The notes beneath the pieces were generated by a model. It searched no databases. It was not told the origin of the DNA and saw nothing but the letters and a program-made list of their open reading frames with translations. From contig CAADGV010000030.1 in NCBI GenBank assembly GCA_900696645.1, forward strand, positions 118,767-182,766: a stretch of 64,000 nt of DNA, given 5' to 3'. This DNA is from an uncultured Chlorobiota bacterium (lineage in GTDB: Bacteria > Bacteroidota > Ignavibacteria > UBA10030 > UBA6906). The translations under genes were made by a program, and so were the position numbers. This document shows, piece after piece, positions 2,878 to 64,000 of the stretch (its first letter is position 1; every line of letters starts with the position of its first letter).

Positions 2878-2902
2878 AAGTTCGTTCTTGATTTCTTTTT
2901 CT

Positions 2903-2950: not shown

Positions 2951-2966
2951 GTAAGAGAAGGAAATT

Positions 2967-7461: not shown

Positions 7462-7622
7462 AGTGCCAATAGGCTTGCAAATGAGTTCTCCTTTTTACAT
7501 TATTAGTGCGTTGTTCTTTGCAATATGTCGATGAGTTTGAGCATGAGATGTAGAGTGAGTTGAGAGTTTCCGCACTATAGCGGCCAACTAACCATCCAAC
7601 CACAATATATTAAGGAGATGCC

Positions 7623-9404: not shown

Positions 9405-9425
9405 AAGTTGTATGCTATAGAACAC

Positions 9426-9455
9426 AAAGAGCGGGGCCATACGGTCCCGCTCTTT
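9426..9455 (+). terminator. Intrinsic terminator after T9SS gene
   Basis: A 13-bp stem (9426-9438 with 9443-9455, one G-T pair) with a four-base loop ends in TTT. It begins 22 bp after the stop codon of the secreted protein. It also lies inside the longer open frame that could extend the next gene upstream, which argues for the downstream start of that gene. Confidence 0.85.
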
Positions 9456-9479
9456 ATATGTTTGCAAAGGAAAGATGGG

Positions 9480-9692
9480 ATGCCCTCAAAACAATCAGCA
9501 GTCGATTGGGTGAATGACGACAAGCGTTCTGCCGAAGAACTTCGTCGTGCATGCAGACTGATGGATTTGCCGGATGATGGGGATCTTGACGCCCTTCGGA
9601 CACGACTCAACAATGCGCTGACTGAAGTCGCCCCTTCTGAAGAAGTCGTATGTTTGAACCCTGGACCGATCACGGCAAAAGGAAGCTTCTAA
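9480..9692 (+). CDS. Small SAP-domain-like protein
   Basis: A 70-residue acidic protein. Residues about 17-47 (SAEELRRACRLMDL, then DLDALRTRLNNAL) match the helix-turn-helix pattern of a SAP motif, a small nucleic-acid-binding unit found in larger DNA-repair proteins and sometimes alone in bacteria. I chose ATG 9480, preceded by AAGGAAAG, because the longer reading frame from 9408 runs through the terminator stem. The gene converges with the SpoU methylase and overlaps its end by four bases. The SAP assignment is by pattern only; whether it binds DNA or RNA is unknown. Confidence 0.5.
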   Translation: MPSKQSAVDWVNDDKRSAEELRRACRLMDLPDDGDLDALRTRLNNALTEVAPSEEVVCLNPGPITAKGSF

Positions 9693-21210: not shown

Positions 21211-21395
21211 AGAGGGAACTGTTTGCCTTTTCCATGCTAGTGCCCCTCCAACTATCTTTTTCTACAAATCGAGGGGCGCAGTGCCGCACCAACATGGAAA
21301 GAACTTCACAGTTTATGTAGAGATATTTAGTTGGAGCGGCGCTACTGATGTATTTTGCGTTTAGATATCTGACAATACATAAGAAGGATGATGCA

Positions 21396-25776: not shown

Positions 25777-28700
25777 ATGAGCCGGAAGCTACTCATTGGG
25801 GCCGTTGTCGTGCTGTGCCTATCAATCAGCATAGCGTATGTCGTCGACCTCGGCAGTGTATCAGATAGCGCTGTGCAGTTGACGGAGGACGAAGTGCGTG
25901 AGTACCAGCAGTTGACGAAGTTGCGCACAAAACTTGACCCCGATTCCCCCGAAGGAATCCGGAATGCCGCCCGTCTTCGCACTCTTGAAAAAATCCGACT
26001 GGGCGAGGCTAAAGCGGAAGCCCCGCATCAATTTGCACGCATTCTTCACGAAATGCGCATCCCGTACGGCGCAACGGAGCCTGCCTATCCACCCAATCAC
26101 AAAATGACAGAGTTGACAAAGGCGCGACGTAACAGTCCGCAATCGCCCAACATTCTTCCGTGGATCAGCCGCGGGCCGGGGAATGTACCGGGTCGGGCTC
26201 GAGGAATTGCTGTTGATCCCGGCGATCCCAACTACAACACCTGGTACTTCGGCAGCGTCGGCGGCGGCATTTGGAAGACCACGAATGCCGGCGCAACGTG
26301 GAGAGACTTGACACCCACCATGCCGAATCTTGCAATGTCCGAGGTGATTCAATCGCCCTCCAATCCCAACATCATGTATGCGGGAACCGGTGAAAGCATG
26401 TTCAGTGTGGATGTCGTGAACGGAGACGGCATTCTGAAATCCACTGACCGCGGCGAGACATGGTATCAACTCACAAGCACAACCGGCAATGACAACTTCA
26501 ACAACATTGCCCGGATGATTGTCGATCCCCAGAATCCGGATATTGTACTTGCTGCAACGACGTCGGGACGCTACAAGCAGAATACGGTGAATCGCTCCAG
26601 CATCTACAAAACAACGAACGGCGGAACGACATGGTACCAAGTCTATAATGAAACGGAAATCGGCCAAGCGGGACGAATCAAACGCGTGCTGCACATTGTG
26701 GCAACACCCGGCAACTTCAATATTCAGTACGCCGCAGTACGCGAGAAGGGAATTTTGAAATCGACTAACGCGGGAGAGTCGTGGTTTCTTTCCTCCAACG
26801 GCATCAACGATCTGACGGGACGATACGAACTCGCCATTGCCCCGTCGAATGTGAACAGGATTTATGCCGCGGCCGAAGGAACACCGAACACCAACCTGTA
26901 TGTCACAACCGATGCGGGGGCAAACTGGACGCTGACTACCGTGAGCGGCACAAATGTGAATTGGCTTTCATCGCAAGGTTGGTATGATAACACGATTGTC
27001 GTTCATCCGACGAACGAGAACAGGGTGTACGTCGGCGGCGTCAATCTCTACGTTATCACGATGATATCCGAAACGCAGCGTACTATTGCATCAATGTCTG
27101 CGGGAGCCGTACACGTCGATCATCATAACCTCATGATCATACCGAAGCCGAATAATTCATTCCGCATCATCAACGCAAATGACGGCGGGATGGGAATTTC
27201 GACGGATAGTTCAACCGGCTGGATCAATCCGGGCAACGGAATGATCACGAGCCAATTCTACGGCGTTGACAAGCGTCCCGGTGCCAGTGCGTACTTTGGC
27301 GGCATGCAGGATAACGGTACGTGGCGTTCGCCGATCAATCCCAATGCGCTAACGGGCTGGACGTCGCAAATCGGCGGCGACGGTTACGAAACCTCATGGC
27401 ACTTTGACGATCCGTTGAGACTCATCGGCGGTTCACAATACAACGGCTTGCGACGCTCGACGAATGGCGGCTCCAGCTTTGCTACAGCAACAAGCGGATT
27501 GGCAACCGGGTCGGGCAATGCGCCTTTCATTACAAAAATCGCAAAGACAAACATGGAGCCTGACCTGCTGTTTGCTGTCGGTGCGAGCGGCGTTTACAAG
27601 TCGACCAACTTCGGACAGAATTGGGTGTTGACGTCGATTCCCAGCAGCACGTGGGGACCTATCAGTTCGTTCCTTGATGTGAGAATTTCCCGCGCGAACC
27701 CTGATATAGTATGGGCCGGCTCTCGAATGGATGCAACGGGTAAGATTCATCTCTCAACAAATCGCGGTGTTACTTTCTCTCCCGTACCGGATTTTACAGG
27801 CACAACGATGGGAGGGATTTCGGGAATTTCAACGCATCCGTGGGATGATTCGACTGCGTATGTTCTCTTTAGCTTTGCACAGAAACCGAAGATTCTACGC
27901 ACAACTAATCTCGGGCAAACATGGGAGGATATCAGCGGATTCATCCCTGGACCGTCAAGCAACAACGGCTTTCCTGATGTTGCGGTGTACGATCTTCTTG
28001 TTCTTCCGCATACACCGAATGTCTTGTGGGCCGGAACGGAAATCGGTTTGTTCGAATCCACGAACAGCGGTGCAAGCTGGCATCTCGCAAACAACGGCAT
28101 GCCCGCTGCCTGTATCTGGTTCATGACTCATGTTGAAGACGAGGTTGTTCTCGCTACTCACGGTCGCGGGGTGTGGAGCGTGAACATACCGGGTCTTGCC
28201 GGCGGACAAACGTTCAAGCCGTTGCTGGGAACTATGGCGCAGGCCCCGGATGGGATGCTCTCGATTCCTGTGACACTCCGCGGGTTGTATGATTCGACCA
28301 TCGTTGCGATCAACGATACGCCGTTTGTCAAGCTCGGGGCCAACCCTGTCGCAATGCGCGATACCGTTGTCAAATATCCCGTCTTACAAGCTCGAACGCT
28401 GACGGTCTCCGTAACTTCGTATAAAGGAGGAGTTGTGTATCCCTCTCTTGCGAGAAGTGTTGCTGTTGTTGTGATTGCTCCGGCCCGGGCGGCATACTCG
28501 AACACATTCAACTCGGCCACAAGTGATTTCACCGGAACGGGATTCAGCGTCACGACACCAACAGGATTTACGGACGGAGGAATTCACACCGCCCATCCCT
28601 ATAGCAATAATCTAAACAATACCTACATGCTCACGATTCCGGTGACCGTTGCCGCCTCGAATGCGTATCTGGCGTATGACGATGTGGCGCTTGTTGAGCC

Positions 28701-29316
28701 CGGCGAACCGGGATCGGCGTTCGGCAATCCGTCATTCTACGACTATGTGGTTGTGGAAGGCACACGCGACGGCATCAACTGGATTCCGCTTGCCGACGGA
28801 TATGACGCCGCGTATGACCCGACGTGGCTGAATGCGTACAATACCTCGACACCGGGCAACGCAACCATGTACCGCCATCATGAGGTGAATCTTCGTGACG
28901 TGTTTGGTGCGGGAGAAAATATCTTCATTCGGTTCCGGCTCTATACTGATGCCAGTGTCACCGGATGGGGCTGGGCAATTGACAATCTCGAAATTCAAGA
29001 ACGGATCACGGATGTGGCGGAAGGGAATGGTGTGCCATCCCGTTTTGCCCTCGAACAGAATTTCCCGAACCCCTTCAATCCCGAGACGCGCATCAGCTAC
29101 CAGCTGCCGCGACAGGAGAATGCCGTGCTGAAGATCTTCAATGTTAATGGTCAGGAGCTCCGGACACTCGTCAACGAAACACAGCGGGCGGGATCGTATT
29201 CAGTGATGTGGGATGGGAAGAATGCAAGGGGATTGGCCGTTGCCAGCGGCATCTATTTCTATAGATTATCAGCAGGCACTTTTGCGGAGACGCGGAAGAT
29301 GGTTTTGACCCGATAG
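25777..29316 (+). CDS. Large T9SS-secreted Asp-box beta-propeller protein (sortilin/VPS10-like)
   Basis: 1179 residues. An N-terminal hydrophobic signal (LLIGAVVVLCLSISIAYVV) is followed by a propeller with ten Asp-boxes (among them TTNAGATW, STDRGETW, TTNGGTTW, STNAGESW, TTDAGANW, STNFGQNW, TTNLGQTW and STNSGASW) between about residues 165 and 775. Next come an Ig-like stretch, a jelly-roll domain (about 910-1080, ending GWGWAIDNLEI) and a T9SS tail with NFPNPFNPETRISY. Ten boxes fit VPS10 or tandem GH74-type propellers; I see no catalytic pair. Probably a cell-surface binding or glycan-acting protein. A strong terminator follows. Confidence 0.88.
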   Translation: MSRKLLIGAVVVLCLSISIAYVVDLGSVSDSAVQLTEDEVREYQQLTKLRTKLDPDSPEGIRNAARLRTLEKIRLGEAKAEAPHQFARILHEMRIPYGATEPAYPPNHKMTELTKARRNSPQSPNILPWISRGPGNVPGRARGIAVDPGDPNYNTWYFGSVGGGIWKTTNAGATWRDLTPTMPNLAMSEVIQSPSNPNIMYAGTGESMFSVDVVNGDGILKSTDRGETWYQLTSTTGNDNFNNIARMIVDPQNPDIVLAATTSGRYKQNTVNRSSIYKTTNGGTTWYQVYNETEIGQAGRIKRVLHIVATPGNFNIQYAAVREKGILKSTNAGESWFLSSNGINDLTGRYELAIAPSNVNRIYAAAEGTPNTNLYVTTDAGANWTLTTVSGTNVNWLSSQGWYDNTIVVHPTNENRVYVGGVNLYVITMISETQRTIASMSAGAVHVDHHNLMIIPKPNNSFRIINANDGGMGISTDSSTGWINPGNGMITSQFYGVDKRPGASAYFGGMQDNGTWRSPINPNALTGWTSQIGGDGYETSWHFDDPLRLIGGSQYNGLRRSTNGGSSFATATSGLATGSGNAPFITKIAKTNMEPDLLFAVGASGVYKSTNFGQNWVLTSIPSSTWGPISSFLDVRISRANPDIVWAGSRMDATGKIHLSTNRGVTFSPVPDFTGTTMGGISGISTHPWDDSTAYVLFSFAQKPKILRTTNLGQTWEDISGFIPGPSSNNGFPDVAVYDLLVLPHTPNVLWAGTEIGLFESTNSGASWHLANNGMPAACIWFMTHVEDEVVLATHGRGVWSVNIPGLAGGQTFKPLLGTMAQAPDGMLSIPVTLRGLYDSTIVAINDTPFVKLGANPVAMRDTVVKYPVLQARTLTVSVTSYKGGVVYPSLARSVAVVVIAPARAAYSNTFNSATSDFTGTGFSVTTPTGFTDGGIHTAHPYSNNLNNTYMLTIPVTVAASNAYLAYDDVALVEPGEPGSAFGNPSFYDYVVVEGTRDGINWIPLADGYDAAYDPTWLNAYNTSTPGNATMYRHHEVNLRDVFGAGENIFIRFRLYTDASVTGWGWAIDNLEIQERITDVAEGNGVPSRFALEQNFPNPFNPETRISYQLPRQENAVLKIFNVNGQELRTLVNETQRAGSYSVMWDGKNARGLAVASGIYFYRLSAGTFAETRKMVLTR

Positions 29317-46616: not shown

Positions 46617-48842
46617 ATGAAACGCATCTTTCCACTGATACTCTTTTCATTTCTGCTTGGCGGCTGCGCGGCGTACAAGGAGCTTTCGCCCAAACCAGAG
46701 CTTTCGCCCGCTGAGCGGGGCTACATTGAGTTGAAGGATGGTAAGGATAATTTTACACTTGATAAAGACAAGAAGTACTATATCAAGTTCCCGAGACCGG
46801 AAGGCGACCAATTCGTGCTTGCGATGAAGCTCAACGCGAAGTCTGCTCTCCAATATTTCTTGACGGACAGATTTGACGGCGGCGACGGCTCCTTTCAGAA
46901 GATTCCCGATGAACTCGCAACGCATGACAACACGAGCGCGTACCTTGTCAACAGGCTTCCTCCCGAATACTTCTGGGTGATTGAATCCGTTCCGTACGAT
47001 GTGGAATTGGAGATGGCCTATCGTTACGTGCCGCAATGGCGCTTCACGTTCGAGAACAAATATGAGGCGTACAAGAAGATTCTCGCCGACAATACCATCG
47101 AGCGCGATACCTACAACTCAGTTGACGACCGGTTCAGTTTCTCCGGCTTTGCTTTCGCTGAAAAACTCCGCCAACTCAATGCGGCAACGAAGAACGTACG
47201 CGGCATGAAGGACGAGTTAGTGAAGCTGGAAAACATCTTCCCGCCGAATATTGCCAGTTCCCGCGATACGGCGTACGAGAATTTCATCGCCCTTCGCAAC
47301 AAAACAAACGACGAGCTGCAATTTCAGGAGAACTACACCACAGTTCTGACCATCTTCAAGAAGGAACAGGACTCGCACGGTAGTATCGCTGCTTTCCTTG
47401 AATCGGCTCCTGAGTTTGCGGAATTCGTCTCGCAACGAGACAGATTCCCGCGCCCCATGCTCGAGAAAGCGCGGACAACATTTATCCGTCGGCTGAATGA
47501 TGCGCCCTCGTTCTACGACGATCAACTCCGTGCAAAGAATGATGCAAAGAAAATCAACTTCACTCCTCCGGCGGAAAATGCCCGCAAACTTTACGAAGCC
47601 TGCGGTGTGCAAGTTCCTTCCGATTTCAGAACGTTGATGTCGTTCGTTGACCGCTTCAACGTTGAAGCATCGGGGATGGCGCTCGTGAACGAGAAGTTTC
47701 AACAAATTGATCGCGCATTTGCCGCCAATCCGCCTCTCACAACCGAAGCGCTTTTTTCGGATTTTCTCTCGAAAATCGCCGATGCCCGGTCTAAACTTCC
47801 CGAATCAAGAACGCTTTCGTTTGACAAGTATGGCCGGTATGTTTGTGCTACTATGCTTGATGCGGAGATTCGGAATGCTACCGCCCGCGTAAATGCTTCC
47901 GAAACATTGTTTGGCATGTCGCAACAATTTGTGCAGCGCCTCAATGCAAACTCATGGGCTCCGGCTGAGGCCATCTTGCGGGAAGTTCACTACAATGCGT
48001 CGTTTGCCGGAGTTCCGGCAGTGAACGAACAGAAAAACAGGATCGTGCGCTCTTTCGAAGGAGAGATCTTCAATCGCGTGAAGCAAGTGTCACATCAGCG
48101 GGTTGACGCGTTCGTCAAGGCGAATGAAGCCGCGATTGACAATGTGCCCGCATTGTATCTCGACTCGGCATTCATACCTGTGCATCAGATCAGTTTCTCT
48201 GCAAGCGGCGAGGCGGAAGTGCAGCGCAAGCGGGCAGAAGTGCAGAACTATATCGACAAGCTGAAGTTCAATGATTTCCCCGCCGCGTCGATCACGGCCA
48301 TTTATCGCGACTTCACGCGCAACATCAATGACCGGGGCGTTGACCGGGCGCGTGCCATTGTCGAGCACGGCAAGTACTACAAAGGCACCGACAATCAAAT
48401 TCGTTCGATGGTGAATGAATGCGACCCGAATATTTCAAAATGGATTATCAGGCCGAAAGAGTACCGCAAGTTGTTCGTCGTGCCCGTGACGACAAATCCC
48501 CGCGGAACAAACGAATATCTCTTCAGAGTGACGTTGAAGATTCCGTCGGAGGCGCAATTCCCGGTGTTTGAGATTAACGTCAAGCTTCCGAAGGAAGTGG
48601 CGGAAAAGGCTGGCACTCAGGCATGGTTTGAGTCCATCAAGCTGAACAGAACGGAAATCAAGAACGAGGGTCGCCACACGATCACGTCGCCGACTGCAGA
48701 CAATAATTACGAGTCACAGATATCGCCTGTGCAAATGGACAAAGACGGAAACAACGTGCTTGAAGTCCGCTTCAAGTATCCCGGCTACAAAGTGTTCGAA
48801 GTGAGCACAATGGCACAAGTGCCGATTATCCGTAAGAATTAG
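46617..48842 (+). CDS. Large lipoprotein of unknown function, first gene of the ABC cluster
   Basis: 741 residues. The signal IFPLILFSFLLGGCAAYKEL has the lipobox LGGC, so the mature protein is lipid anchored. The body is rich in helices and charged residues (about 130-560), while the last 130 residues look beta-rich (RKLFVVPVTTNPRGTNEYLF, then YKVFEVSTMAQVPII). I recognise no family. ATG 46617 follows GGAGAG. It lies 17 bp before the membrane-anchored binding-protein gene in a six-gene run, so it probably helps the importer, perhaps as an outer-membrane or periplasmic partner. Confidence 0.75.
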   Translation: MKRIFPLILFSFLLGGCAAYKELSPKPELSPAERGYIELKDGKDNFTLDKDKKYYIKFPRPEGDQFVLAMKLNAKSALQYFLTDRFDGGDGSFQKIPDELATHDNTSAYLVNRLPPEYFWVIESVPYDVELEMAYRYVPQWRFTFENKYEAYKKILADNTIERDTYNSVDDRFSFSGFAFAEKLRQLNAATKNVRGMKDELVKLENIFPPNIASSRDTAYENFIALRNKTNDELQFQENYTTVLTIFKKEQDSHGSIAAFLESAPEFAEFVSQRDRFPRPMLEKARTTFIRRLNDAPSFYDDQLRAKNDAKKINFTPPAENARKLYEACGVQVPSDFRTLMSFVDRFNVEASGMALVNEKFQQIDRAFAANPPLTTEALFSDFLSKIADARSKLPESRTLSFDKYGRYVCATMLDAEIRNATARVNASETLFGMSQQFVQRLNANSWAPAEAILREVHYNASFAGVPAVNEQKNRIVRSFEGEIFNRVKQVSHQRVDAFVKANEAAIDNVPALYLDSAFIPVHQISFSASGEAEVQRKRAEVQNYIDKLKFNDFPAASITAIYRDFTRNINDRGVDRARAIVEHGKYYKGTDNQIRSMVNECDPNISKWIIRPKEYRKLFVVPVTTNPRGTNEYLFRVTLKIPSEAQFPVFEINVKLPKEVAEKAGTQAWFESIKLNRTEIKNEGRHTITSPTADNNYESQISPVQMDKDGNNVLEVRFKYPGYKVFEVSTMAQVPIIRKN

Positions 48843-48859
48843 CAAAGGACAACGAGACT

Positions 48860-50659
48860 ATGGACGAACAAAAGACTCAGGAAGCCGCGATCCCGGCTTG
48901 GGCCCCGCCACCCCCGCTTCAGAAGTCGAACAAGAAGCGGAATATCATCATCGCTTCCAGCGTCGTGCTGCTGCTGTTGATTGCCGGAGGATTGTACTAC
49001 TATCTCACACTCGACAAGCTTCGCGGGATGATCGTCATTCCCTACATCTCCCACCAAAAACCGACGATCGATCCGCATCTGCCGAGTTCTACCGCCTTGT
49101 CGGACAAGTTGGAAGAAATCCAGTTCGACGGACTCTTCAATATCTCGGCTGATGCAAGCGGCGTGATTTACGAGGACGGTTTGGGAGAATTGATCGGTAT
49201 TGATGAAAACAATATTGTGTCGGTTCGGCTCAAAACGAACAAGTACTGGCACGACAGCTACATTGCAACGATGGAGAAGGAAGAACTCAAGTCCATTGAC
49301 AAGACAAGGGAACATCTCTTCACTGCTGCTGATCTGAATTTCACGTTGCGACGCATTCAGGCCCTCGGCAGTCTTTCGCCGGACTATATTCTTGTTTCTC
49401 AAGCGATTGACCCCCTGGCGTTTGAAGGCCCTGACGCAAGCAACGTCATCCGCATGAGATTCCGCGGCGACCGCATCTGGAAAGAAACCGATATCAAGGA
49501 AGTGTTGTCGTTCAAAGTGTTGCCGGACGGTTCCGACATGAATGCGTTGAACTACACCATCGGCAGCAATGCATACCTGATGCTGCCGCCGAAGGAGGGC
49601 GTTTCGAATTATCACAAAAGTCCCGATGGGACAGCAAACATCGCAAACGTCATTCTGTCGCCGTTCATTGATAACAGCACATTCACGACCGAGTTGAAGA
49701 ACAATCGTATCAACGTTCTGCTCGATACGCCGTTCGGCAGCCTCTCGCCGATTCTGAACGACAGTACGAAGTTTTTTGTGAAATCCAATGTCAGCACGAC
49801 GTTGTTTGCCGTGTTGTTCAACACCCAGCGTCTCAATCGGGAACAACGAATGGCCGTCCGTTCGATGCTCAACGGCAAGCAGGTGATCAGCGCACTGTAC
49901 AAAGTCGGTACACCCCAGCAGCGGAGCATTATTGATTACAGGGGAAACAGGAATAACTATGATGATTATGTGAACAAGAGCGTGTTTCCCACATCATCCT
50001 ATTATATTGAAGATAGTGTTGTGACGCCGTTTGTCACCGATATGCCCGTGAACATGGGGATTCTGCCCGATACTGTTCGCATTGCGGCGTGCATGAATTT
50101 TGGATTCCGTGAAGAATATGCCGACTTGATTGATGCGATCAACAGTCCGGCAATCTCCCGCGGCAAGTTGAAAGTGACGGCAATCCAGAATGAAGATATC
50201 AGGAGAGGGAACTACGACGGTTTGCTTGTTGCCATCAGCGGATACCGGAGTAATTTTCTGTTCGACCTGTACGATATTTTTCTACGGGAGCCGGATCTGC
50301 AAACGTACCGTATCAATCTGGTGACAATACCTGGCGGCGGAGGAATCAGCCCGGCTTCATGGAAAGCGGACAAGAATTTCTTCAGGCTCGATGCCGAAAT
50401 GGGCGGGCCTGATCAGGCCGACATCAATCAGTTGCTGCAATATATCTACGGCTTCATGGCGACACGGCAGATTGGAGACAAGCAGGAATTCTCCCGGCGC
50501 ATTGATGTGCTGGAGAATCAGTTGAGTCTCGGCGCGTGGATGTTTTCGCTGCCGTCGCTGGCATACTTCAGCACACAGTTCGACAGCACAAGTATTGATT
50601 TGTACGGCGTAGCCTCGCAGCTCTCGACCATCAAAAAATGGAAAGAGCAACCAAAGTAG
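48860..50659 (+). CDS. Membrane-anchored SBP_bac_5-like substrate-binding protein
   Basis: 599 residues. A cytosolic start with a proline run (AWAPPPP) and a basic patch precedes one membrane helix (about 29-49), so the rest faces the periplasm. The soluble part follows the peptide/nickel-binding family: FDGLFNI near the start, LKTNKYWHDS, FTAADLNFTLRRIQAL (the usual LTAEDV region) and NREQRMAVRSMLNGKQVISAL where the family has its RxAIxxAIDR block. Similarity is weak and an uncleaved anchor is unusual for this family, which normally has a lipoprotein or a free periplasmic form. AAAGGA precedes the ATG. It overlaps the next gene by 22 bases. Confidence 0.75.
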   Translation: MDEQKTQEAAIPAWAPPPPLQKSNKKRNIIIASSVVLLLLIAGGLYYYLTLDKLRGMIVIPYISHQKPTIDPHLPSSTALSDKLEEIQFDGLFNISADASGVIYEDGLGELIGIDENNIVSVRLKTNKYWHDSYIATMEKEELKSIDKTREHLFTAADLNFTLRRIQALGSLSPDYILVSQAIDPLAFEGPDASNVIRMRFRGDRIWKETDIKEVLSFKVLPDGSDMNALNYTIGSNAYLMLPPKEGVSNYHKSPDGTANIANVILSPFIDNSTFTTELKNNRINVLLDTPFGSLSPILNDSTKFFVKSNVSTTLFAVLFNTQRLNREQRMAVRSMLNGKQVISALYKVGTPQQRSIIDYRGNRNNYDDYVNKSVFPTSSYYIEDSVVTPFVTDMPVNMGILPDTVRIAACMNFGFREEYADLIDAINSPAISRGKLKVTAIQNEDIRRGNYDGLLVAISGYRSNFLFDLYDIFLREPDLQTYRINLVTIPGGGGISPASWKADKNFFRLDAEMGGPDQADINQLLQYIYGFMATRQIGDKQEFSRRIDVLENQLSLGAWMFSLPSLAYFSTQFDSTSIDLYGVASQLSTIKKWKEQPK

Positions 50660-51552
50660 TTTTCCGCATCATACGGCACATGTACAGATCAGCGATTGCA
50701 ATCGCATCGCTGCTGCTATCGCTGTCTCCGGTTTCTGCAAACACCAAAACGGACTTTCTCATCCTTGAGGAAGTCCGCACTCTTTTCATCTACAACCAAT
50801 ATCAGCAGCAGATTTCCAGCCTTGAGAAGAGGGAGTTTCTTCCCTTCACTCCGTTCAGAATTCTCAATCCCGACGACATGTTAGGCGACGGCTTCACTCC
50901 GTGCATGAGAGTGGAGTCGGGAAACCGAATCTACTTCTTCGAAAAAGATTCAGGCGGGCAACTTGCAGGAGCGGAGGGTGTTGCGTTTCAGAGAACGTAT
51001 CACAATGCGATTGTGGTTGGCGATACCATAGAAGTTCTGCACGGTAACCGCGTCTTTCTGCACGATCCGGCAAGGACAGAGAAATCGCCGCTTGCTCAAG
51101 GCGCCGTTGTTGTCCGGATGTTCGAGCACCAGGGATTTACGTATGTGAGAGTGCTTGGCTCCGGCAGCCGTTTCGGGTGGATACAATTCGGCGAATCGAG
51201 AGCAGGTCGTGAGTGGCGGGTTCTCAAACAGACGGGCACATCAACACTCGAACAATTGGAACGAACGCTTCCGCTCATACGCGTTCGCGTGCAGGAAGTA
51301 AATGCAAAACTCGTGCAGTTGTATGAATACTTCAATCGGGAATCTTCACGACGGCTGCAGTCACCGCAATGGAAAGTCGAGCAACAGGGCAACGCCGCGG
51401 TGTGTGTGCTTGAATCCGCTGCTCCTGCTGATGCATTTTCCGAGAGTACGCGGCTGTTGGGCAAATCCATCGAGGGCGTGATTCTCGGAACCTTGCTGCG
51501 TGTTTCGAGTGTACCGGGGCGGATAGAGATTAGCGGGGGAGAGAAGAAGTGA
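50638..51552 (+). CDS. Exported SH3-like domain protein
   Basis: 304 residues (290 if ATG 50680 is used). A signal peptide, RSAIAIASLLLSLSPVSAN, should export it to the periplasm. The middle (about 135-185) has the barrel pattern of bacterial SH3 domains (GDTIEVLHGNRVFLHD, GAVVVRMFEHQGFTYVRVL, GWIQFGE), often found in cell-wall-binding proteins. A helix (LEQLERTLPLIRVRVQEVNAKL) follows. It overlaps the genes on both sides (22 and 4 bases), so it belongs to the importer operon. It may link the importer to peptidoglycan or bind its substrate. Confidence 0.65.
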   Translation: MERATKVVFRIIRHMYRSAIAIASLLLSLSPVSANTKTDFLILEEVRTLFIYNQYQQQISSLEKREFLPFTPFRILNPDDMLGDGFTPCMRVESGNRIYFFEKDSGGQLAGAEGVAFQRTYHNAIVVGDTIEVLHGNRVFLHDPARTEKSPLAQGAVVVRMFEHQGFTYVRVLGSGSRFGWIQFGESRAGREWRVLKQTGTSTLEQLERTLPLIRVRVQEVNAKLVQLYEYFNRESSRRLQSPQWKVEQQGNAAVCVLESAAPADAFSESTRLLGKSIEGVILGTLLRVSSVPGRIEISGGEKK

Positions 51553-52664
51553 AGGCACGCTTTGTTGAGCATGCGGTGAGTATTCTGTTGGTGACGGCGT
51601 TGTTTGTCGGCCTTATTTCTCTTATCCAGCAAGAAAATCTGAAGAAGCGGACGGAGCAGAGAAGCGATATTCAGAAATATCTGGCGTTGGAATTTGTTGA
51701 TTTCGGCAATCCGTTGGATCGGGCGCTGTTTCGCGAGTCACTGAATATCTTCTTTCCTGATACTCCGGCAGGGAATGATTCTCTTCTTCGTGCCATTGAC
51801 GATTTCAGGCGGGAACAGTTCACCAACGAAATGTACAAAACCGGAGGAGCGGAACGGGGGCTGACGTTTGCCAAAACACAGGAACTCCTTGGCATGTTTC
51901 TTCAATTTATCATCATCTATGTTGTTGTGCTTGCGCTGAGTTATTACGGAGCCCAGACGTTGGGGATCATCCGATTCGTTCACATGAAGCAAGGCAGATC
52001 ATCGTACCTCGCATCATTCCTCGAGCATATCTCAACATCAGTAAACGGAAATCGGTCGGTTCCACAGGCCGTTGTGCTCTTGGTAAAAGCGCTTGTCAAG
52101 GGAATGGCATACATCGTTCTGTTCGCACCCGCGTACGTGATCGCGTATTCGTTCAAGACGAGATTTGATACCGATTCGTACTTCTTCATGATTCTTCTCG
52201 GCGTGATCTCGAACGGGCTTCTCATCAATTACACAAACCGCTTCTTCACATTTCTCGTTTCGGAGAGCAGGAAGGGGTATGTCGAGACGGCGGTTGTGAA
52301 GAACCTCTACAACTCCTACTTATGGCACGCGGGTGACGGCATTGCAAAAAGCAGCGTCTTCCGGCTTCGCAAGAAGTTTCCGTCACACGTCTTTCAGCAT
52401 ATTTATCTGAATGCACGGCATCAGTTCCAGCCGACCTTAAAGGAACACGCGTCATTTCTCATTACCGGACTTGTCATCATCGAGATGGCACTGAATATTC
52501 AGGGACATCTCAGCTATGAGATGCTGAAGAACATCCTCTACAAGCAGTACGATGTTGTGCTTGCCATTGTGTTGAGCATTTTCCTTCTTGTGAAAGCAAC
52601 AGAAATTGCTGTCGATCTCTGGACGTATCGTCAAGAACGAAAATTCGGGAACAAGGAGGTGTGA
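51549..52664 (+). CDS. Divergent DppB-like ABC permease
   Basis: 371 residues. Helix 1 near the N-terminus is followed by a periplasmic loop of about 90 residues and then five or so helices, the DppB/OppB layout. Near the end, KGYVETAVVKNL is where DppB has its GYVRTARAKGL EAA loop, and the last helix VVLAIVLSIFLLVKATEIAVDLWTYRQE matches the usual VLLLALLFVLVNLLVDLLYAxLDP end. The EAA loop is much altered and extended. It overlaps both neighbours by four bases. The family call depends on layout, position and these two blocks. Confidence 0.65.
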   Translation: MKARFVEHAVSILLVTALFVGLISLIQQENLKKRTEQRSDIQKYLALEFVDFGNPLDRALFRESLNIFFPDTPAGNDSLLRAIDDFRREQFTNEMYKTGGAERGLTFAKTQELLGMFLQFIIIYVVVLALSYYGAQTLGIIRFVHMKQGRSSYLASFLEHISTSVNGNRSVPQAVVLLVKALVKGMAYIVLFAPAYVIAYSFKTRFDTDSYFFMILLGVISNGLLINYTNRFFTFLVSESRKGYVETAVVKNLYNSYLWHAGDGIAKSSVFRLRKKFPSHVFQHIYLNARHQFQPTLKEHASFLITGLVIIEMALNIQGHLSYEMLKNILYKQYDVVLAIVLSIFLLVKATEIAVDLWTYRQERKFGNKEV

Positions 52665-53524
52665 GACTTCTCAAGGCAAATATTTTTCGGGCAAAAGATA
52701 AACTCTGGCTGTGTATCTGGCTTGCGGGCCTCGGCATTCTGTGGTTGTGGAACACACTGTATCTCAACCCTGCGGCATTTGCGCGGCTGAGTGCCGCGTC
52801 ACTCAACACGCTGTTTGTCGGAATCCTTGTGGTGTTTCTTGCCTTTCTGTTCGGATGGCTGGCCGCGTTGGCGCTGCATTTCCTCGACGAAACACGGACG
52901 CGCATCCCGTATCTGTTTCTGACATTCCTTTTCAATCTCATCCGTTCAGTTCCTCAAATTGTCGGCATCTTGATCGGGTATGTCATTCTCACACTGTTTA
53001 TTCAAGGTGATATTCTCAGGGCACAAACTGCACAGCTCGTCTGGATGTCGTTCGTCATCAGCGTGTTTGTCTTTCTCGAAGTAGCCGATGTGATTCGGGA
53101 GCGGATCGCATTCTACATGAAGTCGGATTTCTTTGATGCAATGCTGTGCTGCGGCATCAGTGAAAGCAGAATCATCAATACGGAAATTCTGCTCAAGAAC
53201 AGCCGTGCACATCTGCTGCACAAGCTGATTTCGGTATTTGGCGCGACAATCTTCCTGCTATGCAGCGTGGATTTCATTGTCTCGGTGGGCCTTTCAACCG
53301 ACGTCAGTCTCAGCAATTTTCCCACAACACTCGGTGGACTTCTCGCGACGATGGATAGCAAACAGGATATTCTCGCCATCGGCACGGTTGTGACGAACTT
53401 CAGAAATTTCAGCGCGCTCTTCTTTCAGCACTTGCAGGGCATCAGTACGGCGTGGATAATTGTGTTCACGCTTCTGTGCCTCTACAAAATCTCCAACGGA
53501 TTTGTCAAGAGACACAGATTGTAG
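52661..53524 (+). CDS. Divergent DppC-like ABC permease
   Basis: 287 residues with about six membrane helices. The binding-protein-dependent permease core is seen from NTLFVGILVVFLAFLFGWLA to the EAA-type loop SDFFDAMLCCGISESRII, which corresponds to DYVEAARALGASDLRII in DppC, followed by a further helix and a periplasmic segment with SNFPTTLGGLLA (the usual PPxPSWGxxL position). The start GTG overlaps the previous stop by four bases, and the ATPase ATG follows its stop directly. It should form a heterodimer with the 51549-52664 product. Confidence 0.75.
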   Translation: MRLLKANIFRAKDKLWLCIWLAGLGILWLWNTLYLNPAAFARLSAASLNTLFVGILVVFLAFLFGWLAALALHFLDETRTRIPYLFLTFLFNLIRSVPQIVGILIGYVILTLFIQGDILRAQTAQLVWMSFVISVFVFLEVADVIRERIAFYMKSDFFDAMLCCGISESRIINTEILLKNSRAHLLHKLISVFGATIFLLCSVDFIVSVGLSTDVSLSNFPTTLGGLLATMDSKQDILAIGTVVTNFRNFSALFFQHLQGISTAWIIVFTLLCLYKISNGFVKRHRL

Positions 53525-55057
53525 ATGACCATCAGACGCAACATCAGAATTGCTTCGGGCAAAAGAACCCTCGTCTCGATCGACAACTTCGAGATACCGG
53601 AGAACCGTATTACGATCTTGTTGGGCGAATCGGGAATCGGTAAGTCACTCATGTCAAAAGCGTTATACGGACTCCTCGATCCTGACGAACTCGACATTAC
53701 AATTGATGGCGAGCCCTACCGAACTTATCTTGCGCGCCCGGAAACAGCAACGTTGCAACATGAGAGTTTCTTTGTCTTTCAAGAACCTTCTACCCATCTG
53801 AATCCGTTGATGCCGCTTGCAACGCAAATGCGTGAGGGGAGTCTTGGGTTCTCGAAAAGTGAGGAGGCCATCCTCGGCACGCTGTGGCAACACTCGCCGC
53901 CGGATGATGTCAAGAAGATTTTAGACGTGTATCCGAAACCGCATCGCCCGAGCGGCGGCGAGAAGCAGCGCATCCTGCTGGCGATGGCATTCAAGAAGAT
54001 CGACCTTCTCATCGAACGGAAGCAGCCGTCCGAACATGAGATCTTCGTGTTTGATGAGCCGACCGGAAGTCTCGACAATATGTACCGTGATCTCTTTCTG
54101 GAGATGCTATTCGAGCGGTTCCGCAAAGTGGGCTTTACCTGCTTGCTCATCACACATGATTACTCGATGATCGAGAAAATTCACACGAGTCACAAGGACA
54201 TTGTCGGCAAGCTTGTATTCAAGGAAGTGACTCTCGTCGAAGGTAAGCAGTTGCTTGAGGATTTCGACACCGACGCATACCTCGAATGGCTTCATACGCA
54301 GCATCCTTCCGAGAGCGCCGGAAGCAAGACAAGCCGCAGCATTTTGCTGGCAGTGGAAAATGGCACCCGCGTTTTCAATCGTTCGCTGATCATTTCACGT
54401 GATCGTGAAGGCGAGCATCCTTGTTCATTGGAGTTGCATAGTGGAGACATCGTTTACCTCAAAGCAGCAAGCGGTGTTGGCAAAACAACGCTGGTGAAAC
54501 TTGTGATGGGATTGTTGAGAGCCGAACGCCTGAAAGCGCGGCTTGAGACCATGCAGATGGATGAGCAAACGCCGAGGTCATTCTGGCACAAGAATATTTG
54601 GGGACGCAGAATGACAATGGTGTTTCAGCATGCCGATGAAGCATTGAATCCTGAATCAACTGTGAAGGGAACATTCGAGGGTCTGCCCGCGTTGAAGCGA
54701 GCAACGGAGGCCCGGATTGTCAATATCCTCAATGAACTGTTCGATTCGGCTCTCGATGCAAGTTTCCTGAACAAGAAAGTCAAACATCTTAGTGGCGGGC
54801 AGAAACAGCGACTGAATTTGTTGCGTGGCTTTGCTCTTGATACAGATGTGTTGATTCTCGACGAACCGCTGAACGGCTTGGATTTCGAAAGTGCCGGGAA
54901 GGTCATCGCAATGCTTCAGCGAAAGCAGAACGCCGGCAAAGGGATTTGGCTGATTTCTCACAACGAGGAGATTTTTGACAGGATTGTGAGAAAGGAGAAC
55001 GTGTACTACTTGCGGGCGGAGAGCGGCATAGAAAAAGTCGGGCCGACTCGCAATTGA
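53525..55057 (+). CDS. Single-chain double ABC ATPase (DppD-DppF-like fusion)
   Basis: 510 residues with two complete nucleotide-binding domains. NBD1: Walker A GESGIGKS (34-41), Q86 in VFQEPSTHLNP, signature PSGGEKQR (142-149), Walker B IFVFDEP (173-179), His211. NBD2: Walker A AASGVGKT (314-321), Q368 in VFQHADEALNP, signature LSGGQKQR (422-429), Walker B VLILDEP (442-448), His479. The xLNP after each Q-loop is typical of the Dpp/Opp class. NBD2 has Ala where Walker A normally starts with Gly. NBD1 has about 12 extra residues (IERKQPSEHE) before Walker B. Both sites look catalytic. The C-terminal 4Cys/peptide tail of DppD/F is absent. Confidence 0.88.
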   Translation: MTIRRNIRIASGKRTLVSIDNFEIPENRITILLGESGIGKSLMSKALYGLLDPDELDITIDGEPYRTYLARPETATLQHESFFVFQEPSTHLNPLMPLATQMREGSLGFSKSEEAILGTLWQHSPPDDVKKILDVYPKPHRPSGGEKQRILLAMAFKKIDLLIERKQPSEHEIFVFDEPTGSLDNMYRDLFLEMLFERFRKVGFTCLLITHDYSMIEKIHTSHKDIVGKLVFKEVTLVEGKQLLEDFDTDAYLEWLHTQHPSESAGSKTSRSILLAVENGTRVFNRSLIISRDREGEHPCSLELHSGDIVYLKAASGVGKTTLVKLVMGLLRAERLKARLETMQMDEQTPRSFWHKNIWGRRMTMVFQHADEALNPESTVKGTFEGLPALKRATEARIVNILNELFDSALDASFLNKKVKHLSGGQKQRLNLLRGFALDTDVLILDEPLNGLDFESAGKVIAMLQRKQNAGKGIWLISHNEEIFDRIVRKENVYYLRAESGIEKVGPTRN

Positions 55058-56196: not shown

Positions 56197-56211
56197 ACTT
56201 ACCGCGGAGAG

Positions 56212-56682
56212 CTACTCCATCTCCATTCTATCAAACGCAAGTTCAAGGCTTTCCACCAACACATCCTTTCCTTTTGCCTGTAATGTTGAAAACGAATATC
56301 GTACAGGCCACGCTCTCCTGAATTTCCACGTGAGGACAGTATTCGTTCGATCCTCGTTCTGCAGCGAGATTGTGACATTGCGGAACGCATTCCGGTCGCC
56401 GTTGCGTACCTGATCCAGCCATTGATAAAGATCAAGCGTACCGATGACGCCGCGTCGCAACGTGACATTGCCGTAGTGGGCGCGGCCGGGGAGTTTCCGT
56501 GTTTCCGAGACGCGTTCGTTGCCGTTGCGGTATTCAATCACGTCAATGGAAACGTCGGGCAGCACGACTTCCGAAAATCCCGCCTGCAATGATTGCGGGT
56601 CGCCCGTTCCGAGATTGACAAGATAGTTGTAGTTGCCGTAGGGATCGTTGCGCTGCACAGCCGCTGCAGATTGTTTTGCCAT
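56212..56682 (-). CDS. T4 gp19-like phage tail-tube protein
   Basis: 156 residues matching the conserved tail-tube family (T4 gp19, Pvc1/Afp1): DPYGNYNYLVNLG at the start, AGFSEVVLPDVSIDVIEYRNG, RKLPGRAHYGNVTLRRG, LYQWLDQVRNGDRNAFRNVTISL and FRRAWPVRYS, then ESLELAFDRMEME at the end. Such proteins build the inner tube of contractile tails and injection systems. Nothing else in the window codes for sheath, baseplate or spike. It is the last gene of a three-gene set that starts at 57401; GAGGAG precedes its ATG. Confidence 0.85.
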   Translation of the reverse strand: MAKQSAAAVQRNDPYGNYNYLVNLGTGDPQSLQAGFSEVVLPDVSIDVIEYRNGNERVSETRKLPGRAHYGNVTLRRGVIGTLDLYQWLDQVRNGDRNAFRNVTISLQNEDRTNTVLTWKFRRAWPVRYSFSTLQAKGKDVLVESLELAFDRMEME

Positions 56683-56688
56683 GATGGT

Positions 56689-57144
56689 TCACTCCTCTGG
56701 AATTGTTGGGTTCTGTTTGTAATGCAGGATGATGATATCGGAGTATATTGAGAGGTCGTGATGAAGGATTGCCGAATACCGCTTGCCTTCCCTATCACGC
56801 CACTGCAACGTCGCATCAATCTGCATCGGCTGCTTGCGACGAAAGTAGGAATCGCTGCTGTCGAGAAATGTTCTGATGCTTCGCTCCGGAGCAAGAAAAG
56901 CAATGTTCCGGAACATCACAAGTTGTGACATTTCACATTCACCCCCCAATCCCGTAAACCGCTTGTTGAACTTCGTCTTCACATCAAGCGCAGGCTCATT
57001 CCCGATATTTCTGATCTCGACAGACAAAAGTCCATCTTCAAACACAAAGTCCAGAATAACATCAGGAGATGAGGATGGCGTCTCTTCTTTCCGGTCTGCC
57101 GCAGCGCCTGACGTTGCAGGTTTCTGTTTTCGTTTTCTGATCAT
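56689..57144 (-). CDS. Hypothetical protein beside the tail-tube gene
   Basis: 151 residues. A basic, low-complexity start of about 25 residues (RKRKQKPATSGAAADRKEE) leads to a beta-rich domain (VILDFVFEDGLLSVEIRNIGNEPALDVKTKF) with a sandwich-like pattern that recalls CARDB/Ig-type modules. I do not recognise a named family. Its ATG overlaps the previous stop by four bases and its stop lies six bases before the tail-tube start, so the product probably works with the tube protein. Confidence 0.65.
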   Translation of the reverse strand: MIRKRKQKPATSGAAADRKEETPSSSPDVILDFVFEDGLLSVEIRNIGNEPALDVKTKFNKRFTGLGGECEMSQLVMFRNIAFLAPERSIRTFLDSSDSYFRRKQPMQIDATLQWRDREGKRYSAILHHDLSIYSDIIILHYKQNPTIPEE

Positions 57145-57401
57145 TTCGTGTCCGAAAGATGCGGCGGTTTGAATCCGCGGTATGTGTCGAAGCGTGAATC
57201 ATAGAAAACGATGTTGAAACTACTATCTCTCAACGTGCCGCCTGATGGATAGAGGTAGAATTCAGAGAGTGTGCCGGTAATCTTGTTGACCGGCTTTCCG
57301 TTCTCTGTGTAGAACTTCAGCGTATAGTAGCCGAGCATGAACGGTGCAGTCTTGAGTTGCTCGAGTATGTTCTCGTCCCGAAACAGATAGAGGTCGCCCA
57401 C
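57141..57401 (-). CDS. Small hypothetical protein, first of the tail-tube set
   Basis: 86 residues, apparently a compact alpha/beta protein with aromatic-rich strands (FMLGYYTLKFYTENGKPV, ITGTLSEFYLYPSGG). No family recognised. Start codon is GTG with GGAG about nine bases upstream. It is 13 bp after the SDR stop and overlaps the next gene by four bases. It could be cotranscribed with the SDR and M49 genes further upstream. Confidence 0.6.
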   Translation of the reverse strand: MGDLYLFRDENILEQLKTAPFMLGYYTLKFYTENGKPVNKITGTLSEFYLYPSGGTLRDSSFNIVFYDSRFDTYRGFKPPHLSDTK

Positions 57402-57414: not shown

Positions 57415-58191
57415 TCAAGTGGCTCTTCGATGTACCATTGTCACCGTCGCCTGGTCGGTCGGCGTCAACTGTAATTCATTTATGTTTACATGCGGGGGAC
57501 GTGCAGCGCAGAACACAACCGCTTCCGCTACATCGCGTCCTGTCAGCGGCGTCATGCCGAGGTACGTTTTCGATGCCCGCTCTTTGTCGCCATGAAACCG
57601 TACCCTGCTGAATTCGGTTTCCACCAATCCGGGATCAACGCTGGTGACGCGGATTGCTGTGCCAAGCAGATCCATCCGCAGACTTCGGGTCAGCCCTGTG
57701 ACGGCAAACTTTGTTGCGCTGTAAACATTTCCCATAGGGTAGGTTTGATGTCCGGCAATCGAGCCGATGTTGATGATATGTCCGGTGTTGCGCTTGACCA
57801 TTGCGGGAAGCAGGCAGCGTGTAACATAGAGCAGACCTTTGATGTTGGTATCAATCATCTCCTCCCAATCTTCAACATCTCCCTCATGCAACTTGGCAAG
57901 TCCGCGGGCAAGTCCCGCATTGTTTACGAGGATGTCTATCGTTTTCCACTCATGAGGAAGGGAAGAAAAAGCCCTTTCAACCTCCGTCCGGTTGCGAACA
58001 TCGAGTTGGATCGTGTGGATGTTAATAGAGCAGGATGATCGGAGTTTCTCTGCCAGCGTCTCAATCCGGTCCTTTCTCCTCGCGATAAGAAGGAGATTGC
58101 AACCTTCCCTGGCGAATTCTTCTGCACACGCCGCGCCGATTCCGGCAGACGCTCCGGTGATGCAAACAATCTTTCCTTTGAGCGATTCCAC
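57415..58191 (-). CDS. Short-chain dehydrogenase/reductase (YdfG-like)
   Basis: 258 residues of classical SDR fold. The cofactor motif is CITGASAGIGAACAEE, the central motif is LVNNAGLARG, and catalytic Ser/Tyr/Lys appear in IGSIAGHQTYPMGNVYSATKFAV. Arg residues after strand 2 (IARRKDR) point to NADP preference. The VDPGLVETEFSRVRFHGD region matches YdfG, an NADP-dependent serine/3-hydroxy acid dehydrogenase. Start codon is GTG and overlaps the M49 stop by one base (TAGTG), so the genes are coupled. Confidence 0.93.
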   Translation of the reverse strand: MESLKGKIVCITGASAGIGAACAEEFAREGCNLLLIARRKDRIETLAEKLRSSCSINIHTIQLDVRNRTEVERAFSSLPHEWKTIDILVNNAGLARGLAKLHEGDVEDWEEMIDTNIKGLLYVTRCLLPAMVKRNTGHIINIGSIAGHQTYPMGNVYSATKFAVTGLTRSLRMDLLGTAIRVTSVDPGLVETEFSRVRFHGDKERASKTYLGMTPLTGRDVAEAVVFCAARPPHVNINELQLTPTDQATVTMVHRRAT

Positions 58192-59867
58192 TATTTGACT
58201 CCTTCCGCAAGCGGATAACGCGGAGCAATGTCTGTGGGGATGGACGTCATCTTGTCGAGTGCAGCTTTCATTTCGGGACGCATCACGCCGTAGGTATCGA
58301 GCATTGCTTTCGCCTTGTCGTAACTTCCTTCGGCTTGGATTGTCATGATTGCGGAAGTCAGTTTTGTGACTGCCTGTTTGATCTTGTCAAAATTGACGCT
58401 GAACGTGCCGCTTGCAGCGTCGTGCACAAATGCGCCTTCATCAATCAGATAATTGAACTGAAGTGCAATACCTTTGCCGTGCGCTTCGTTCAACCCGAAC
58501 CGGACCGAACGGAATGCGCTCGCAAGGAATGTCACATACATCTGCCTTTCAAACGATTTGTCGACAACACCCTTGTCGATCAAGTATTGCAACGCCCACA
58601 ATCCGCTGATGTCGGCTTTTGCTTCTTCAAACGCCGAGGAGAGTTCCTTCATTGCCTGACGGACGGTTGTCTGCTTGCCGTCAACCGTAATGCTGTGCGG
58701 CCCGAGGCCGTGCATCAATTCGTGGGCTAAAATGTGAGTGAAGAACGGCTCGAAGGCGATCAGGCCGCGCTCATCCAGAGCAATGGCGACGCTGGAAATC
58801 GGCACAAGGATGTTCCTGAATTTCGCCTCCTGTACGTTTTTCAACATCACCCGCTTGCTTCCTTTTTCCTTTGTTACCTTCTCGTCGTTGGGCAGATTGA
58901 AGGCTGCTGTTTGCACGCCTTTGTTTGCCTCTCCGCCGTTCACAACTACATCAACAACGCGAATAGGGGCCAGCGCTCCGAGTTTCGGATTTCTGTACTT
59001 CTTGTCGATGGGGAGATTGTTTTCCAAATCCTGCAGCTCGTTTGAGAATTTCGAGAGCTTGTTTGTCTCTTCATCGTTGCGCAGCGTGATGAACGCCTCG
59101 AACGCCGCCTTGTAATTAAACAACTCATCCATATAGACTTCGTACGGACCGATAGTCGGTTCAATAGGGGCATCAAGCTCCATCCACGCAACGTCACTGG
59201 CGTAGTAATCGTTGCTCAGGAATGCGTCTGCACGTTTTGTCAGAAAATTCTTCAACGATTTGTTATCGGTCAATGCCGCGGCTTCGCGCAGCAAATCGGC
59301 CGCAGGCTCAAGCCACCGGCGGTATTCGTCGCTGTAGGAGACGAGCTTGAGTTTTCCGTTCTCATCACGACGGATTGTATAGAAGAACCCCCTTGCCTTT
59401 TCTTGATCCTTTTTGGAAAGTGTCCCAACCCATTCCTCAAATTCTTCTTTCGTCATATCTTCCGGGTAGAAGTTCGCGCCCGCCGGTTTCGGATAGGGGA
59501 CGCCTTCCACAAATGCGGAATCGTGGTCGAGTCCTGACCAGGGACCTTTGTTCAGCATGAACATCTTATACCGGAGTTTCCCTTCAGCGGAGGTATCGGC
59601 GGCGAGTTGTTCTTTCAACGCAACATTGCCGCTCCAGACCTGACGGAGGTACACTTCATCCATCAACCGCGAGGCCTCGATGAGTTTGTCGAGTGCCTGG
59701 CGGTCGCCGGCAGAAAGTTGCGAGACATCGGCAGTGATTTCCGTTGGAGCGAAGCGATTGAGTTTTGCTGCGAGGGGTGATTCCATGGTGGTGTCCTGAG
59801 GTTTTGAACATCCGATGATGAGTGTGAACGTACACGCCACAAGCGGCACGACGAGGGAAAGTTTCAT
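58191..59867 (-). CDS. M49-like zinc metallopeptidase lipoprotein
   Basis: 558 residues. The signal SLVVPLVACTFTLIIGC ends in lipobox LIIGC, so it is membrane anchored. Zinc site residues are in ILAHELMHGLGPHSI (HELMH) and in AFEEAKADISGLWAL, the order used by DPP III-type M49 enzymes and their relatives. Classical DPP III has HELLGH, with an extra residue; here the motif is the shorter HELMH. It should cleave peptides at the cell envelope. ATG 59867 follows GAAAGG with good spacing. Confidence 0.82.
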   Translation of the reverse strand: MKLSLVVPLVACTFTLIIGCSKPQDTTMESPLAAKLNRFAPTEITADVSQLSAGDRQALDKLIEASRLMDEVYLRQVWSGNVALKEQLAADTSAEGKLRYKMFMLNKGPWSGLDHDSAFVEGVPYPKPAGANFYPEDMTKEEFEEWVGTLSKKDQEKARGFFYTIRRDENGKLKLVSYSDEYRRWLEPAADLLREAAALTDNKSLKNFLTKRADAFLSNDYYASDVAWMELDAPIEPTIGPYEVYMDELFNYKAAFEAFITLRNDEETNKLSKFSNELQDLENNLPIDKKYRNPKLGALAPIRVVDVVVNGGEANKGVQTAAFNLPNDEKVTKEKGSKRVMLKNVQEAKFRNILVPISSVAIALDERGLIAFEPFFTHILAHELMHGLGPHSITVDGKQTTVRQAMKELSSAFEEAKADISGLWALQYLIDKGVVDKSFERQMYVTFLASAFRSVRFGLNEAHGKGIALQFNYLIDEGAFVHDAASGTFSVNFDKIKQAVTKLTSAIMTIQAEGSYDKAKAMLDTYGVMRPEMKAALDKMTSIPTDIAPRYPLAEGVK

Positions 59868-59934
59868 GATTGCCTTTCGTGATTGCGTATTTTTGATGAG
59901 AGAAATCTTCAAGTTGTCCGGGCTATTCTCAGCA

Positions 59935-62544: not shown

Positions 62545-64000
62545 TTATTTGAGAAGAATCATCTTCTTAATGGTCGAAAAATCTTTCCCGCTTGATGTCC
62601 TTGCTTCAAGCCGGTAGAAGTACACGCCGGTGGCAACCTGCACGCCGGAAAGACTTTGTCCGTTCCATACAGCATCGTATGTACCAATACCCTGTACCCC
62701 GTTGAACAGCGCTGCCACCTCCTGACCGAGAAGATTGTATATCTTCAACGCTACAGTTGACTGTTCGGGGATAGCATACCTGATTGTCGTTGACGGATTG
62801 AAGGGATTTGGATAGTTCTGCGAGAGAGAAAACTCACTCGGCAGCACGTTGCCGACCGGTTCCACTGAGGTCGTGGTCAATTGGAATGCAATGCGTGAGT
62901 TCGCTTCGGGCATTGCTGCAAGAGCGTTCTGCACCGTGTTGTTGAACGTCGCGCTATTGGCCGTCTGCTGAGAAAGAAGTTCGCATACTGCCGGAACGGC
63001 TGAAATCGTCGGTGCATTGAGGCCCAGTGTGTACGTGAACGTTGCGGTTCCCGGGTCCATTGGGCCGTAAACAAATTCTATCTTGTTGGATGTCTCATAC
63101 AGCTTCACTTGGAAATTCATGCTTCCGGCCCCGGAGCTCGAGAAACTCCGTACCCCGATCCACTCAACAGTCAGCACGCGGTTTGGTGCACTACCGTCGA
63201 CCTGATATTTCATCATGTTGGGCTGCAGAGTTCCGGTGGGGAAGATGAGGTCATCGTACAGCGGGCCAAGCGCAAGAAGGGTTCCGGTCGTGGCGGTGAA
63301 CTGCGTGTTCTGATATCCGTACGCAGCGGTGCCCGATCCTGTTGCTGCCGACGAGGAAAAATCGAGGAACCCGTTAGTTGAAGCGCTGAAGGAGGTATAA
63401 TCAACTCCTATATAATTGAAGGTGAAACCGATTGGAGTTGATGCGCTCCGGTTATCGTCAATGCTTGCCGCGTTGCGCCATGCAGCAAAGGAGTTGCCTG
63501 TTGACGAAATGGAAGTGTATGTGATTCCTGTGGAGCGTGTTATGCTGAAGTCGGTAAGGCAGGGTACGGCAACTCTCTTGAATGTGATATTGAACGTCTG
63601 CGTGGAGGCCAGGGAGTCAGTACCCGAATAAGCGTACACCCTCCATTGCCCGACAATGGAATCTCCGATGGCCACTCCCAACCCGGCTATAAGTGAGTCA
63701 AGCTGGGATGTCCGGAACGTGGCAGATGTATCCAATCCTGCAGGAATATTCAGTCGAACAGTTCCTGCAAATGTTGGTGTTGCAAACTTCCACCTGTAGG
63801 ATGCGCCATCTCCCGATTTGCGCCACACTATTTTGACGGGTGTTGTGCTGACAGCATTTGTCACGACTGTCGTTCCCGTCGGCGGCGAAACCAGGCTGAA
63901 GGCCGAGAGCACCGGCCGTCCGCGTTTCAGCGTGATTGCCCTTGGACCGTTGGATGATTTCAGAGAATCGTTTGCCGGCGGGTTGTTTCTGAACGCCCAC
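62545..64000 (-). CDS. T9SS-secreted protein, 5' end beyond the window
   Basis: The frame is open through the window edge (WAFRNNPPANDSLKSS just before a GTG at 63912), so the gene begins outside and only the last 485 residues are seen. The visible part has an Ig/fibronectin-like region (VSPPTGTTVVTNAVSTTPVKIVW in parts; YRWKFATPTFAG), a beta-rich domain with FNYIGVDYTSFSASTNGFLDF that recalls nidogen-like or PEP-type exported proteins, and a T9SS tail (QNYPNPFNPSTTIRY, LLGQEVAALFNGVQ, GVYFYRLEAR, KMILLK). Surface or extracellular role; function unknown. Confidence 0.85.
   Translation of the reverse strand, partial: WAFRNNPPANDSLKSSNGPRAITLKRGRPVLSAFSLVSPPTGTTVVTNAVSTTPVKIVWRKSGDGASYRWKFATPTFAGTVRLNIPAGLDTSATFRTSQLDSLIAGLGVAIGDSIVGQWRVYAYSGTDSLASTQTFNITFKRVAVPCLTDFSITRSTGITYTSISSTGNSFAAWRNAASIDDNRSASTPIGFTFNYIGVDYTSFSASTNGFLDFSSSAATGSGTAAYGYQNTQFTATTGTLLALGPLYDDLIFPTGTLQPNMMKYQVDGSAPNRVLTVEWIGVRSFSSSGAGSMNFQVKLYETSNKIEFVYGPMDPGTATFTYTLGLNAPTISAVPAVCELLSQQTANSATFNNTVQNALAAMPEANSRIAFQLTTTSVEPVGNVLPSEFSLSQNYPNPFNPSTTIRYAIPEQSTVALKIYNLLGQEVAALFNGVQGIGTYDAVWNGQSLSGVQVATGVYFYRLEARTSSGKDFSTIKKMILLK

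Follow-up and report, generated by a model that had tools for sequence, protein, structure and literature searches.

The six genes at 46617-55057 of the window (the whole stretch of 64,000 nucleotides analysed here) probably encode one ATP-driven Dpp/Opp-family importer of type I with a fixed envelope assembly, import being the direction that we infer from the sequences. The unit proved to be genuine and conserved, a variant of the Dpp/Opp importer of which no published description was found; searches for papers on ABC transporters of Chitinispirillaceae and on peptide transporters of Ignavibacteria or Fibrobacterota returned nothing relevant to it. All six reading frames, here called A to F, were open at the coordinates in Table 1, and the gaps from A to F, as first called, were 17, -22, -4, -4 and 0 bases, confirming the gene layout given in the initial annotation. 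The second of these gaps would be altered if C starts at 50680 rather than 50638, as it may; the start 42 bases downstream gave a better-looking signal peptide and replaced the overlap of 22 with a B-C gap of 20. The source genome comprised 4.2 Mb in 46 contigs. Promoter- and terminator-like sites at the locus were at chance level, and no Rfam match was found near it.

Table 1. Genes of the six-gene unit, with positions in the window.
Gene	Coordinates	Strand	Product and features
A	46617..48842	+	741-aa lipoprotein; no Pfam family; AF2 model pLDDT 88.9
B	48860..50659	+	SBP_bac_5-type binding protein; predicted N-terminal transmembrane anchor; no lipobox
C	50638..51552	+	Putative exported protein; alternative start 50680
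D	51549..52664	+	DppB-type permease; TM1, periplasmic region and 5 TMs; EAA loop insertion
E	52661..53524	+	DppC-type permease with 6 TMs; glycine retained in an altered EAA loop
F	53525..55057	+	ATPase, two ABC domains in a single chain; no oligo_HPY domain

Among the window's own six proteins, Pfam recognised F alone, in which ABC_tran was matched twice (1.8e-38). B, D and E fell below the cut-offs, and their family placement rests on the Pfam matches of their relatives. SBP_bac_5 (PF00496) was matched by 17 of 26 relatives of B (best 2.7e-10), and BPD_transp_1 (PF00528) was matched by 7 of 18 relatives of D (best 9.2e-8) and 4 of 16 relatives of E (best 9.3e-8). A weak OppC signal was also seen for E in NCBIfam (E 0.0016). 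Together with the motifs of F, these matches indicate a Dpp/Opp-type core; the earlier assignments of an SBP_bac_5-like binding protein and of DppB- and DppC-like permeases were upheld, and B, D and E did not fall into unrelated families. Further, comparison of the B profile with the clade's ordinary binding proteins gave a probability of 92.6% (E 4.6e-7). Several results count against the importer reading. Profile searches against PDB sequences returned no match for B or for D, the AF2 model of B (pLDDT 52) was too poor for fold comparison, the profile probability between D and the ordinary DppB of its kin was 2% although their motifs were collinear, and residues contacting the peptide ends were untraceable in B. 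In DppA, R383 and D436 hold the peptide ends (PMC12136057); the alignment with B was weak at these positions, and the ordinary receptor of the source genome gave the same picture there, so nothing can be concluded from them about B.

Hydropathy gave every intact B, in both phyla in which the unit was found, one hydrophobic anchor near the N-terminus; no lipobox was present. This anchor has the appearance of an uncleaved transmembrane helix, as the initial annotation had proposed. EAA-type loops were found at their usual place in both permeases, in altered form. In D, the EAA-type motif GYVETAVVKN was followed by an insertion of approximately 20 residues that was present in all 34 members, and in E the motif was changed to DAMLCCG...EILxKN, in agreement with the earlier statement that both EAA loops are altered. 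Each ABC domain of F had a Walker A, Q-loop, signature, Walker B and H-loop, and these ten motifs were all present in nearly every one of the 34 members. The closest PDB chains to F were DppD and OppD of M. tuberculosis, and F was also near NikD/NikE and YejF. No oligo_HPY domain (PF08352) was among the Pfam matches listed for F or for its first half, and the whole chain had two cysteines. Such a domain after the ATPase is the rule but not a universal feature. M. tuberculosis has systems whose joined pair of ABC domains includes an Fe-S domain and others whose pair does not (PMC12136057), so the missing oligo_HPY domain is compatible with membership of F in the Dpp/Opp/Nik group. The fused DppD-DppF-like ATPase described initially was indeed a two-domain chain. 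However, its fusion is not a departure from known systems, since a two-domain ATPase, YejF, is usual in E. coli YejABEF (PMC10924461) and DppD and OppD of M. tuberculosis are also fused (PMC12136057); the premise that ordinary systems consist of five separate genes is not general.

The start of A at 46617 and its lipobox (LLGGC-A) agreed with the 741-residue lipoprotein first described, and the lipobox pattern was also found in most relatives of A. The AF2 model had a beta domain at residues ~35-140, a helical middle at 140-602 and a beta-sandwich at 608-735. When this model was used in fold comparison, the N-terminal beta domain resembled PliG (Z 8.4) and the C-terminal domain resembled a collagen-binding/PPC domain (Z 7.9); both are common folds, and the matches are uninformative on function. 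Matches of the helical middle to a designed protein, SbsC, spectrin and Munc13 were within chance for helical models and were rejected. The profile search of A against PDB sequences retained nothing useful, its match to DpHF7 being to a designed helical repeat.

C is fast-evolving, with approximately 30% identity in kin and 22% between phyla, and its signal peptide suggests export. Its putative SH3-like label is weakly supported. A weak SH3_3-like stretch was located near residues 150-185; SH3_3 (PF08239) was matched by one of 20 relatives at E 0.01, and the comparison of C with the SH3_3 profile gave a probability of 5% (E 0.007), with the right register and worse scores for the controls. The profile search of C against PDB sequences yielded nothing useful. 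The export of C was retained from the initial annotation, and its SH3 module with a link to peptidoglycan was not. The same stretch was the basis of an earlier guess that the unit takes up cell-wall peptides, with C or A holding peptidoglycan and B taking the released muropeptides. The helical part of A resembled the N-terminal part of the S-layer protein SbsC (Z 7.9, within chance for helical models), a likeness on the side of this proposal. However, no recognised peptidoglycan-binding domain was found in A or C by domain scans, and no cell-wall gene was kept beside the unit, making such an importer very unlikely.

The order A-B-C-D-E-F was observed in 28 complete loci and in 3 others cut or broken by assembly, a recurrence far beyond chance. 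These loci occurred in the window's phylum and in Fibrobacterota, the phylum of Chitinispirillaceae; sampling covered these two phyla, and a distribution in at least two phyla is a lower bound. The six genes therefore stay together in relatives, in the same order in about 31 loci, and this conserved block bears out the central proposal that the genes make up a complete importer unit of the Dpp/Opp family in which the binding protein is tethered and envelope proteins have been added. Among 60 related genomes, 18 had A, 18 had B and 20 had D; the three genes shared the same genomes, barring fragments at contig ends, and A was confined to genomes with the six-gene unit. B was found in 11 of 395 sampled genomes of the window's phylum and in 19 of 167 Fibrobacterota genomes; in both phyla all matches were strong (E < 1e-130) with nothing intermediate, and no B match was found on plasmids. 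C was missing from two loci only. In one (G045, locus L032, 11780-12817), C and the first ~100 residues of D were unrecognisable, the missing part of D being most of TM1 and the periplasmic region, and A, B, E and F were intact; in the other (G060), D-E-F preceded A-B and no C was recognisable. One genome (G067) carried A-B-C and D-E-F on separate contigs and retained all six genes, one locus (L078) had A-B only, and two (L072 and L073) had extra DNA between B and C. Outside the six genes, no conserved neighbour was observed across loci.

In the tree of B, Fibrobacterota formed one fully supported clade and the branching elsewhere followed families, indicating that recent spread is unlikely; recent horizontal transfer was accordingly rejected as an explanation. 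Most simply, the unit is an old system that has often been lost. The source genome also encoded, on another contig, one ordinary SBP_bac_5 receptor with a full Pfam score, together with DppB- and DppC-type permeases. Several genomes (G013, G017 and G030) had the six-gene unit without an ordinary SBP_bac_5 receptor, indicating that the unit does not depend on one. That the genes form an ordinary, merely divergent Dpp/Opp operon, with A and C as unrelated passengers, is highly doubtful. YejABEF has a fused ATPase and a core of four genes (PMC10924461), which would fit such an operon. However, A and C were kept in the block at fixed positions in two phyla, the near-constant presence of C and the confinement of A to genomes with the unit do not suit passengers, and the source genome encodes elsewhere an ordinary SBP_bac_5 system that scores fully in Pfam.

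If the six genes encode one importer, F, with two intact ATPase domains, would hydrolyse ATP and drive D and E, which would form the channel and open and close it. B, held at the inner membrane beside the channel by its N-terminal helix, would capture the substrate without being a free shuttle, and the tether would make the receptor non-exchangeable. A and C would join the same complex as a dedicated periplasmic or outer-membrane assembly, which would supply B with substrate or keep the complex in position. By default, the substrate would be one of the ligands of SBP_bac_5 proteins, such as a peptide. It is conceivable, if unlikely, that the arrangement goes further, with outer-membrane A, periplasmic C and tethered B making a standing bridge that replaces the shuttle receptor and passes a specific substrate from the outer membrane to D-E-F; the unit would then be a trans-envelope importer, an ancient FCB system with its own substrate.

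An unlikely alternative is that no substrate is carried and the ATP cycle of F is relayed through D, E and tethered B to A and C, as in an envelope signalling or mechanical device comparable to FtsEX and other mechanotransmission ABC systems. The tether of B and its conservation over the whole length (62% mean column identity, 26 members) point this way, as do the changes in both EAA loops, the lack of transport homologues for the two large accessory proteins and the untraceable peptide-end contacts in B. However, D and E matched the importer family BPD_transp_1 through their relatives, and an FtsX or MacB domain was absent from the Pfam matches of all D and E relatives and was not returned by any scan. 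In these genomes, the ordinary binding protein showed similar conservation (57-58% for G000 against G007 or G010), indicating that the strong conservation of B is nothing special, and conservation was dropped as a mark of a non-receptor role.

The importer reading was compared with known systems. Like the unit, YejABEF, the peptide and microcin C importer of E. coli, belongs to a Gram-negative host and combines a receptor of the oligopeptide-binding type with two permeases and a single ATPase chain of two ABC domains (PMC10924461). However, YejA is exported and its signal peptide is cleaved, whereas B appears to keep its anchor; YejABEF has no counterparts of lipoprotein A or of C, and differs from the unit of the window, in which B, D and E fall below Pfam cut-offs. 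DppABCD and OppABCD of M. tuberculosis share the fused ATPase and a membrane-held receptor (PMC12136057). Their receptor is held by lipid, in contrast to the predicted transmembrane helix of B, OppD has an Fe-S domain whereas none was matched in F, and both systems are without A or C. E. coli DppABCDF resembles the unit in its permeases: D has a DppB-like topology, its TM1 and TM2 being separated by a periplasmic region, and E is DppC-like. The DppABCDF ATPases are separate and each has a [4Fe-4S] C-terminal domain, in contrast to the one chain of F without it (PMC12136057). Further, DppA is soluble whereas B is anchored by prediction, and the EAA loops of DppABCDF are without the insertion of approximately 20 residues seen in D.

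The Mla system (MlaA, MlaC and MlaFEDB) comprises an outer-membrane lipoprotein, an exported protein, an inner-membrane-anchored binding protein, a permease and an ATPase. Its resemblance to the six-gene unit is an analogy of layout only; no homology was seen, and its permease, binding and ATPase families differ from those of the unit. Peptide importers of Gram-negative bacteria are described as consisting of a free periplasmic receptor and a pump. A membrane-held receptor is usual in Gram-positives, where it is held via lipid (PMC12136057), and a receptor with a predicted transmembrane tether in a Gram-negative is the unusual point here. More broadly, what is unusual is the combination of the apparently transmembrane-tethered binding protein, the insertion in the EAA loop of D, the lack of an Fe-S/oligo_HPY domain, the large lipoprotein and C. 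A whole lineage has kept its receptor tethered, together with two envelope proteins of unknown families, as one block in two phyla; the unit is a clear case for how receptor tethering and a changed coupling loop affect an importer. A, B and C represent protein families that are unrecognised or barely recognised by present family libraries.

Other features were observed in the genome and near the unit. On contig C27 of the source genome, the stretch with the ordinary receptor (L089, G000:C27:5000-19637) encoded, at 2176-11178 on the minus strand, this SBP_bac_5 receptor and the DppB- and DppC-type permeases, with a Ser/Thr kinase-AAA-TPR protein of 1259 aa and a sigma-54 activator behind them; the stretch had no ABC ATPase gene. 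The set of receptor, permeases and kinase recurred in two other loci (L092 and L094), and its make-up suggests Dpp-type receptor genes with a link to signalling. In the window, the region adjoining the six-gene unit (56199-57401, minus strand) carried a lone T4 gp19-like tail-tube gene (56212-56682, minus strand, Pfam 5e-35) and two small unknown genes, which may belong to a contractile injection system or be a remnant. A gene for a dipeptidyl peptidase III-like (M49) lipoprotein, with a partial match to the Pfam model, was found at 58191-59912 on the minus strand. Secreted proteins (subtilase, sortilin-like and unknown) with type IX secretion-type C-terminal domains were encoded at 21348-23702, 25777-29316 and 62545-63912.
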